From: Myrmaecium sp. VS I D KN 1
Lineage: Eukaryota; Ascomycota; Dothideomycetes; Valsariales; Valsariaceae
Assembly (NCBI GenBank): GCA_019775845.1
Contig: JADQAV010000053.1
Location: 1 to 64,000 of the forward strand
DNA: 64,000 nt
Reading direction: 5' to 3'
Shown here piece after piece: positions 975-60,009 of the stretch. Position numbers and translations under genes: made by a program. The notes under the pieces were generated by a model. That model was given only the letters and a program-made list of their open reading frames with translations. It did no database searches and had not been told where the DNA came from. Position 1 is the first letter of the stretch, and each line of letters starts with the position of its first letter.

Positions 975-2095
975 ATGGCTTCACCTCCTGTTATGGATCA
1001 TTACCTCGCCATCCCCTCGCTTGAAGCGCTTGACGATTCTCTCGCGTCTTCCTTCATGGATCCGGCAGCTACCATCAAGATGGAGGATGTCTACGCTCCT
1101 TCAGTCTCACCGGCGCCACAATCCATGTCTGGTGCCGCCGCCGGTTCGATATCACTGCCTGCCTCATCTCCATCAGCAACACCTTCCACACAACAACCAC
1201 AACCCTCATCACAGTCGCGGTCAGCATCATCACCAACACCAGCGGCGACAAATACGGGGTCGACGTCGGAAGCGAAGCCGGTGAAGAAGCGCAAGTCCTG
1301 GGGTCAAATCCTTCCCGAACCGAAGACGAACCTTCCTCCTCGGAAACGCGCCAAGACGGAAGACGAAAAGGAGCAACGACGCATCGAGCGTGTCAAGCGC
1401 AACCGCCTTGCCGCGCACAACTCGCGCGAGCGCAAGAGGCTCGAGGTCGAACAGCTTCAGCATGACAAGTCGGAACTGGAGAAGCAGATCGCCGCCTTCC
1501 AAGACAAGATGAGGCTGATGGAAGCCGAACTTCAGTATTTCAGAAAGCTAATGCCCGACGCCGTCGCCCGTTTCGAGCCGAACGACCTCCCGTCCCTCCC
1601 GACGATGAACCCAACACAAGCCTCGTTCCCCTCACCCGTCTCCATGGCCAGCTTGGAGCCGTTGGACTCCCCCGCCACCAGCCCTTCGGAGTCGACAACC
1701 GGACCGTCAACGCCATCCCCTATGGAGGCCGCCCATGTTAAGTTCGAGAAGACGCAACATTCTGCTGCAATGTTGTGCGACCTGCAGTGTCTCTCGAGCT
1801 TCAACATGATGATCGGTCTTCGTTCTTCGTTGATGGTTTCCCTTCTCCTGTCGAGTGTACTCTCGATCCTGGCCACGCTGAACACTCTCTGTTCGACTAC
1901 AGCAATCTATTTCCCAAATCTCCCGTCGTTCTGGACAGCCAGACCTCGTTCTTCGAGGACTCGCTCCCCAAGACGGAGCCATCGGTCTCCCTTGCCGATC
2001 CATCCTGCGACTTTCCTGATCGCTTTGGCGAAGACTGTTTCAACATGCTCGCCGACTTGCGCGCACCCGTCTGCGACGAGCCTGGCACAGCGTGA
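975..2095 (+). CDS. hacA: HacA/Hac1 bZIP transcription factor of the unfolded protein response
   Basis: The master regulator of the endoplasmic-reticulum unfolded protein response. The segment KKRKSWGQILPEPKTNLPPR followed by KRAKTEDEKEQRR, the basic region (VKRNRLAAHNSRERKR) and a leucine zipper are the HacA signature. The active protein needs removal of a 20-nt Ire1 intron (1765-1784). Joining 975-1764 to 1785-2095 gives 366 residues and changes the tail to one starting SAVSLELQHDD, as in other fungal HacA proteins. Without splicing the frame runs on to 2300. No ordinary intron is needed inside the coding part. The start is uncertain: ATGs at 765, 783, 975 and 993 are all in frame. I prefer 975 because the sequence before it looks like leader. 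The family is regulated by Ire1 splicing and by its leader. Confidence 0.9.
1765..1784 (+). other. Unconventional 20-nt Ire1-type hacA intron
   Basis: Both borders match the Ire1 loop consensus CNG|CNGN: CTG|CTGC at 1764/1765 and CTG|CAGT at 1784/1785. The 5' site lies in a perfect hairpin (7-bp stem 1755-1761 with 1769-1775, 7-nt loop). The 3' site lies in a 7-nt loop closed by GAC/GTC (1779-1781 with 1789-1791). Each cut falls after the third loop base. Removal shifts the frame and restores the conserved HacA tail. It has no GT-AG ends, so the spliceosome would not remove it. Confidence 0.92.
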
Positions 2096-2300
2096 TGAAC
2101 GCGGTCTTCCCAAGCCCTCGAAGGTTGTGAGGATGGACGGTGACGATGACACGGTGGATCCGTCGTTGGTCAATGTCCTGTCGAACCACGTGAAACACTC
2201 TCCAGTAATACCACCGAGAGTGTACAGAGGAAGTCGACGCAGGTTCTCGCAACGTCTATCGGATCTTGCACCTTCGTTGGGAACAATAAGTTGTCATTAA

Positions 2301-57749: not shown

Positions 57750-60009
57750 ATGTCCGCCGCCGAAGACCGCCGCGGGGTCAACTACCAAGACCTGCTCCCG
57801 GTGCCGGGCGAGACGGCGCCGGACCAGCCGACGACGGAGCAGCACACCTCCCTGGCCGACCAGCCGACGGAGTCGCACGCACTCGCGGTGCGGGCCGCCC
57901 AGGCCCCCGATGCTGAGCACCCCGTCGGCGCCGCCCAGGTCGACCATGATAAGGAGGTCGTTGACCTTGGATGGAACGAGCCGGATACGCTGCGGCCGAA
58001 GCCCCTTGTGGGTGGTCTGCCGAATGAGGAGCTTTGGGTGTTGGTTAGGCGGTTTAATAAGGTGTGTTGGGTTGCCTCCTTTTTTTTTTCCTTTTGGGAT
58101 GACGTTTGGGACGACGGTTAAAGGGCATGGGGCTGATGGTTGTAGCAAATGTACCATGTGAAACGGACGGCGTTCCCGCCGCCGGGTGGCCTCGACTTGA
58201 ATATCGCGGATGAGGAGGAGTTTAGCCCGGATAAGCTGCGGAGTAATGTGGAGAGGATGTATATGACGATTGTAAGTGGAACTTCTAGAGGACCAAAGAT
58301 CGATTGGGAGATCGTGTGCTGATATTTTGCGTGATTGTCAGGGCATCGGTATGATGGCGTTCGGTAAGCACATCGTGCGGCTCCGGTCTTGGAGGGAGAC
58401 GAAGCGGACGGCCTGGTTCTGCACGGCGTACTTCGCCGCGTGGATGTTTGACCTGATAGTCCCGCTATTCACGGCGATGGTACTGGTCTTGATTGCGTAT
58501 CCGCCGTCGCGAGAGTTCCTCTTCCCCCCTGTGCCCATCGCGCTGGTGGATGGCAAGTCTGGTGGCGTGCAGAAGCCGAAGGCCGGTGTGCTCGGCAGCC
58601 ATGACAGCGCGACCGGCGCTCCCGAGAACCACAAGGGTGAGGCGGTCGAGGCGGAAGCGTCGAACTTCGTCAACGGCATCGCCTCCGTCGCCCTCAGCAG
58701 CGCGACGGGCAAACACCCTCAAGGCGAGCCGGAGGACTCCGACACCGACGCACCCGTTCACGAGAAGGCTGTTCCGGATCCGACCACCATTGCCACGGTG
58801 GCCGCCGATTCCCAGTCCAAGGCCGCTGGCGGCAAGCCCCACGCGGCGCATGACAAGACCAAGGTGCCCATGGAGACGGCCATGTGGACGAAGATGCGGC
58901 CCGTCATGCACGGCCTGGCCGAGCTGACGGACACCTGGGAGCGGTTCGCCAACGCGCTCTCGCCCACGCCGCCCTTCCCCAAGAACGCGCACCGCCTCCG
59001 CCTCGCCGCCCTCGTCGCCCCCCTCTTCTTCGTCTCCCTCCTCACCACCTCGTACATGTTCATGAAGGGCGTCACCTTCGGCGTCGGCTTCGGCTTCTTC
59101 GGCCAGCCCGTGCTGGACCGCGGCCTCGCCTGGCTGAACCGCAACTACCCCAACTGGCAGAAGCTGCTCGAGATCCGCAACACCCTGCTCAAGGGCGTCC
59201 CGACCAACGCCCAGCTCACCATCACGCTCCTCCGGATCGGAGAGGCGAATAAGGCGCCGCTTCCGCCCCCGCCACGGTCCAACCTGCCGCCGCCGGAGAG
59301 GCCCGCCCAGCTGACGGACAAGGAGCTTCGCGCGACGGGCGCCGAACCCCCGCTCAACGCCAGCCCAGAAGAGCTCGACGCGGCTATCAGCCACGACGGC
59401 GGAGCGACAGCACACGCCACAGGCGGCGCCGACATCGACGCGGCCAAGAACAGCAAGGACACGACGCCGCACAAGAAGGGCAGCAAAATCCTCTCCTTCT
59501 TCAAGGGAACCACCAAGGCCTCCGTCACCACGGCCTTGGGCGCGGACAAGCTGAAAGCCAAAGCGGGCTCGGGCCCAGCCAAGGACCGCCTCGGCGTCGT
59601 CCCGCCCAAGGACGCCTCCGTCGTCTCCGGGCCCACGGAGTTCCCGGCCCGCTGGAAGGGCCACCGCGGCCACGTCTACCTCACCACCACCGCGACCATC
59701 CCCTGCGTCGCCTTCAGCCCGGCCTCCTCGATCGCGACAAAGGGCACCGTCGGCCGCGAGGATGAGATCCATCCCGTCTGGTCCGTCCCCATCGCGGAGA
59801 TCCGCGAGCTCAAGAAGATTGGCGGCTTTGGCTGGAAGGCGAAGCTGGTGGTGGGTTGGGCCCTGGATCGCGAGGTTGCGGATGGCTTGGAGATTGTGGC
59901 GGGTGAGGGGGAGAAGATGAGCACGTACCGTGTCACGGCGTGTCCGACCCGTGATGAGCTGTTTAATCGGCTGGTGGCGATGGGGCCGCAGAGGTGGGAG
60001 AGTTGGTAG
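57750..60009 (+). CDS. DUF3292-type membrane protein
   Basis: Three exons, 57750-58061, 58146-58271 and 58342-60009, give 701 residues, with GTGTGT/GTAG and GTAAGT/TCAG introns. The family is found in filamentous fungi and has no proven function; I recognise it from NEELWVLVRRFNKQMYHVK, GGLDLNIADEEEFSPDKLRS, AFGKHIVRLRSWRETKRTAW and FVNGIASVALSSATGKHPQG. Hydrophobic stretches are FCTAYFAAWMFDLIVPLFTA with MVLVLIAYPPSREFLFPPV (one or two helices) and LRLAALVAPLFFVSLLTTSY with GVTFGVGFGFFGQPVLDRGL. After a Pro/Ala-rich linker, the C-terminal part (FPARWKGHRGHVYLTTTATI, VWSVPIAEIRELKKIGGFGW, FNRLVAMGPQRWESW) has the look of a GRAM/PH-like lipid-binding fold. That last point is inference. Confidence 0.82.

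Follow-up and report, generated by a model that had tools for sequence, protein, structure and literature searches.

A hacA-type gene with two possible tails

The window, by which we mean the whole stretch of 64,000 nucleotides analysed here, begins at the first base of its contig, in a genome of 25.66 Mb distributed over 66 contigs. Near its start, on the plus strand, lies a bZIP gene of the hacA/HAC1 type with the following parts:

975 to 1764, plus strand: 5' exon of hacA, comprising the N-terminal part and the bZIP domain (open reading frame; PF07716)
1765 to 1784, plus strand: predicted Ire1-type (non-spliceosomal) intron of 20 nt (loop geometry; Rfam match)
1785 to 2095, plus strand: 3' exon in the spliced frame, C-terminal tail and presumed activation domain (coding score 0.198)
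1785 to 2300, plus strand: tail in the unspliced frame (open; coding score -0.10)

In the list of open reading frames the unspliced frame runs uninterrupted from an ATG at 765 to 2300; we assumed translation to start at 975, within the same frame. Upstream of the intron, residues 132-185 match the bZIP_2 domain (PF07716; 34.4 bits against a cut-off of 22.3, E 2.3e-8). As the original prediction had claimed, removal of exactly 20 nt (1765-1784) switches the bZIP frame to a different tail: the stop moves from 2300 to 2095 (stop codons at 2298-2300 and 2093-2095, respectively), and the product counted from 975 shortens from 441 to 366 amino acids. An ordinary gene caller would presumably report the 2300-ending form, the one whose frame is open in the genomic sequence. 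No conventional intron was found between 975 and 2500, where none of nine GTNNG[T/C] sites was accompanied by a branch-point match; the scan covered 5' sites of this pattern in that interval.

Twin loops at the predicted cleavage sites

The borders of the 20-nt segment lie within two small hairpins, both enclosed by a longer stem and by a match to a curated RNA family:

1734 to 1749, plus strand: 5' arm of the outer stem, a 16-bp stem that holds both splice-site hairpins together
1755 to 1775, plus strand: 5' splice-site hairpin with a stem of 7 bp and the loop CTGCTGC; Ire1 is predicted to cut after G1764 (RF04247 alignment)
1779 to 1791, plus strand: 3' splice-site hairpin, GAC-CTGCAGT-GTC, predicted Ire1 cut after G1784 (RF04247 match)
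1792 to 1808, plus strand: 3' arm of the outer stem, with one unpaired base
1736 to 1806, plus strand: match to Rfam RF04247, "bZIP non canonical Hac1/Xbp1 intron" (45.5 bits, E 7.4e-7)

The stem of the 5' hairpin, predicted to be a perfect one of 7 bp, was upheld both by reading and by script: CAACATT at 1755-1761 forms seven Watson-Crick pairs with AATGTTG at 1769-1775, or nine pairs in all when the adjoining G-U and C-G are included. It closes the loop CTGCTGC (1762-1768), whereas the loop CTGCAGT (1782-1788) of the 3' hairpin is closed by a stem of just 3 bp (1779-1781 with 1789-1791), shorter than the stem of about five base pairs described for Ire1 substrates in PMC3149027. Each loop is 7 nt long and matches CNG|CNGN, the consensus for cleavage sites as quoted in PMC8071499. 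The third bases of the two loops are G1764 and G1784, exactly where the original prediction had put the cuts. According to PMC4891664, Ire1 cleaves 3' of the G at position 3 of each 7-nt loop, a rule that leads to a predicted cut at G1764 and an intron of 20 nt. Five 20-nt deletions (1762-1781, 1763-1782, 1764-1783, 1765-1784 and 1766-1785) would yield an identical product, so reads lacking 1765-1784 could not by themselves fix the cut sites. A search of the organism's own genome with the 26-nt core of the element (1762-1787), allowing up to 3 mismatches, returned a single match.

The Rfam family is represented by an independent, curated covariance model with a gathering score of 41, which the hacA element exceeds. 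The alignment spans the full model (1-72 of 72) and places both loops in register; its gaps reflect a 3' stem that falls two pairs short of the model consensus. In a search of the whole genome the element at 1736-1806 was the sole match above the cut-off among the 73 of 1720 first-look candidates that were scored, a tally that is accordingly not exhaustive. A second candidate (contig C57, 277292-277370, minus strand; 20.7 bits, E 3.44) fell below the cut-off and was dismissed as insignificant. Matches to the model were obtained in 7 of 14 control prokaryote genomes, every one of them below the cut-off.

We also counted pairs of CNGCNGN loops whose starts lie 14-30 nt apart and whose 5' and 3' stems have no fewer than 5 and 3 bp, respectively, both in the window and on both strands of 300 simulated 64-kb windows drawn from a first-order Markov model of the same dinucleotide make-up. 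The window held one such pair on each strand, compared with 16 in all 300 simulations, or about 0.05 expected per window over both strands. None of the 300 simulated windows contained a pair with stems of 7 and 3 bp at a spacing of exactly 20. Under looser limits (3 bp for either stem, 14-60 nt) the window held two pairs on the plus and three on the minus strand, against 276 in the 300 simulations. The minus-strand pair found under the stricter limits (59283-59313; stems of 6 and 3 bp, spacing 24) lies antisense to an open reading frame matching DUF3292 and is probably due to chance.

Coding signal of the two tails

To score codon usage we relied on 13 other long open reading frames of the window, taken mechanically and amounting to 7418 codons. 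For the 203 in-frame control stretches, which come from these same training frames, the 5th percentile lay at 0.020 and the 1st at -0.060; for 406 out-of-frame controls the 95th and 99th percentiles were -0.137 and -0.028. The spliced tail (1787-2092) scored 0.198, and judged against these controls it appears to be coding in the spliced frame. The unspliced tail, at -0.10, fell below the 1st percentile of the in-frame controls, and the third frame scored -0.51 and contained five stops. In this gene codon usage measures coding only weakly, since the bZIP exon itself scored no higher than 0.103 and an antisense frame across the tail, interrupted by one stop, reached 0.041.

Folding of the hacA RNA around the intron

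The segment 1733-1810 folds at -31.5 kcal/mol (z-score -4.61), and none of 200 shuffled sequences folded as well. By contrast, the 5' hairpin alone (1755-1775), the 3' hairpin alone (1777-1793) and both together (1754-1793) do not stand out, being equalled by 15, 143 and 108 of 200 shuffles, respectively. The folding signal comes mainly from the outer stem, whose arms form 16 bp when both hairpins are present. Forcing the RNA into this twin-hairpin fold raises its energy by 2.1 kcal/mol over the minimum-energy fold of the model, in which the pair probability is 0.44-0.49 for six of the seven pairs of the 5' stem, 0.24 for the outermost one, and 0.013 for the 3' stem. A rival fold pairs 1751-1755 with 1787-1791, so that the exons are zipped nearly to the cut. 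After cleavage, exon-exon pairing is calculated at -29.4 kcal/mol, a value reached by none of 122 stretches of the gene with the same geometry. It is reasonable to suppose that Ire1 selects the twin-hairpin form of the RNA, and that zipping of the exons then helps to expel the intron and to bring the ends before the ligase. A comparable exon zipper has been proposed for XBP1.

The processing enzymes and the proposed switch

The genome encodes both enzymes that such a reaction calls for. An Ire1-type RNase domain is represented by one PF06479 match (E 8.1e-44), with a kinase domain in the exon directly before it. When the PF06479 protein was aligned to the solved structure of yeast Ire1 (2rio), the catalytic Tyr, Arg, Asn and His, the active-site residues named in PMC3149027, were all found to be kept. 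The ligase, kinase and CPD domains of a Trl1-type ligase (PF09511, PF08303 and PF08302) reside within one open reading frame, which matches a solved tRNA ligase (9r3w, E 5.8e-239).

The reading of the locus as an Ire1 splice switch is supported by the RF04247 match, the coding signal of the spliced frame, the bZIP_2 domain and the presence of both Ire1 and Trl1 in the genome. We consider it almost certain, judging from the sequence, that the element serves as the regulatory intron in a hacA/HAC1 gene of a filamentous ascomycete, spliced under ER stress by Ire1 and a Trl1-type ligase. In response to ER stress, the kinase/RNase Ire1 of the ER membrane would cleave the cytoplasmic hacA mRNA after G1764 and G1784, the 16-bp outer stem would keep the cleaved exons together, and the Trl1-type tRNA ligase would join them. 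The loss of 20 nt would fuse the bZIP domain to the tail ending at 2095, and the resulting HacA factor would activate the unfolded protein response. From features of the sequence we infer that splicing takes place in vivo, that it responds to ER stress and which bonds are cut, and from the gene itself that the fungus belongs to the filamentous ascomycetes; cleavage, ligation, their dependence on stress and the activity of the tail are likewise predictions.

Ire1 and the hairpins could be real and the excised piece nevertheless be 17 nt long, with the 5' cut after G1767. The 5' loop CTGCTGC does contain two CTG triplets, and either excision leads into the same downstream frame. In N. crassa, moreover, hac-1 has the same asymmetric CTGCTG/CTGCAG flanks and an intron of 23 nt (PMC4488935), which means that intron length varies among these fungi. 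Yet the rule that the G occupies position 3 of the loop (PMC4891664) picks G1764 and hence 20 nt, and the Rfam alignment sets both loops in register, which makes the shorter excision very improbable. We give still less credence, practically none, to the notion that the twin loops arose by chance or survive as a relic, with the unspliced protein that ends at 2300 doing the work. In its favour, the frame stays open across the whole tail without splicing, and the twin hairpin is not the minimum-energy fold. An open frame is unremarkable here, however, as 9513 of 20000 synonymous permutations of the spliced tail leave it open too. We rejected chance as the origin of the loops on the strength of the Rfam match, which lies above the gathering score, of the codon score, which places the coding signal in the spliced frame, and of the simulated windows, none of 300 having an equally good pair at the same spacing. 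The occurrence of both Ire1 and Trl1 in the genome argues in the same direction.

Comparison with known fungal introns

The HAC1 gene of V. dahliae has a 20-nt unconventional intron with twin stem-loops and CNG|CNGN sites (PMC8071499), an arrangement that recurs in the hacA gene described here. The same source gives 20-26 nt for such introns in filamentous ascomycetes. In C. fructicola, 20 nt are removed under DTT (PMC12162442), and in this species, in V. dahliae and at the present locus alike, excision of 20 nt from a bZIP gene leads (here by prediction) to a shorter protein whose C-terminus differs. PMC12310822 cites introns of 20 or 23 nt from T. reesei, A. nidulans, A. niger and N. crassa, and also reports the removal of 23 nt in M. 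thermophila. The closest likeness in the flanks is to N. crassa hac-1, which shares with our gene the asymmetric CTGCTG/CTGCAG pair, the change of frame and the shorter protein, but whose intron has 23 rather than 20 nt (PMC4488935). Other filamentous fungi are reported in the same paper to carry CTGCAG on both sides, unlike the pair found here. A further difference is the conventional intron reported for the genes of V. dahliae (53 nt), C. fructicola (49 nt) and M. thermophila (58 nt), whereas none is evident in 975-2300.

Fungal homologues were not confirmed among 248 pattern matches in the collection genome_contigs or 26 in viral_contigs, a result that says little because neither collection is intended for fungi. 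The literature searched yielded no printed copy of the intron sequence. The hacA intron is a further example of a published switch, and the element as such adds little to the literature. Its best use lies in correcting the hacA gene model and in prompting a comparative test of the unspliced tail.

A hydrophobic segment in the unspliced frame

Beyond the intron, the unspliced frame contains one further feature:

1824 to 1880, plus strand: segment resembling a membrane helix, encoded by the unspliced frame alone, with a Kyte-Doolittle value of 1.98 across 19 residues

The segment reads SSLMVSLLLSSVLSILATL and is followed about 20 residues further on by an arginine-rich stretch in the same frame. 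No segment of the spliced HacA protein exceeds a Kyte-Doolittle value of 0.70. Among synonymous permutations of the spliced tail, 1206 of 20000 reached the hydropathy of 1824-1880 (566 of these with the frame open), as did 623 of 20000 codon-order shuffles (228 open). In the 13 other open reading frames, none of 126 half-overlapping stretches reached it, and 9 of the 126 reached 1.6. The permutations average 1.47, so the composition of the spliced tail accounts for much of the hydropathy, and the statistics flatter the segment because it was noticed first and tested afterwards. As far as the sequence goes, then, the indication of selection on the unspliced tail is weak.

How the unspliced hacA mRNA meets Ire1 in filamentous fungi matters more than the intron itself. 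In animals, the HR2 segment of XBP1u brings its own mRNA to the ER (PMC9217131). Like HR2, the segment at 1824-1880 is hydrophobic, lies downstream of the intron and occurs in the unspliced frame only. The likeness between the two is one of hydropathy. By this analogy the unspliced frame might be functional, its hydrophobic segment docking the ribosome and the hacA mRNA at the ER membrane beside Ire1, an idea that we regard as unlikely. If true, where budding yeast relies on a 3'-UTR element, filamentous fungi would tether the mRNA through a protein, and splicing would free the hacA mRNA by shifting this tether out of the reading frame.

A study of A. fumigatus (PMC7580959) proposes that unspliced hacA has a role and, drawing an analogy to human cells, mentions targeting to the ER; with a concrete hydrophobic segment this idea becomes testable. 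The word "hydrophobic" is absent from PMC7580959 and occurs once, within a reference, in PMC4488935. The passages with this word in PMC4891664, and 12 of the 14 in PMC6627864, hold nothing on the HacAu of filamentous fungi. We have seen no report of a hydrophobic tether in a fungal unspliced HacA in the literature searched, which leaves out most subscription papers.

The region upstream of hacA

The 5' leader (600-974) shows no unusual structure as a whole, with a folding z-score of -0.09. Promoter motifs of the HacA type were not found upstream of hacA; two such patterns occur 2 and 3 times in the window, in each case from 8740 onwards, and these counts are no higher than in shuffled sequences. 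The leader of A. niger hacA carries an 18-bp inverted repeat (PMC6627864); an imperfect inverted repeat of 18 nt, 72% complementary, is present upstream of our gene at 623-640 and 731-748. In T. reesei and A. nidulans a short upstream open reading frame is lost on induction, according to the same source. Two short frames, of 43 and 59 amino acids, precede hacA here (561-692 and 613-792), and a third (971-1024) overlaps the assumed start codon at 975.
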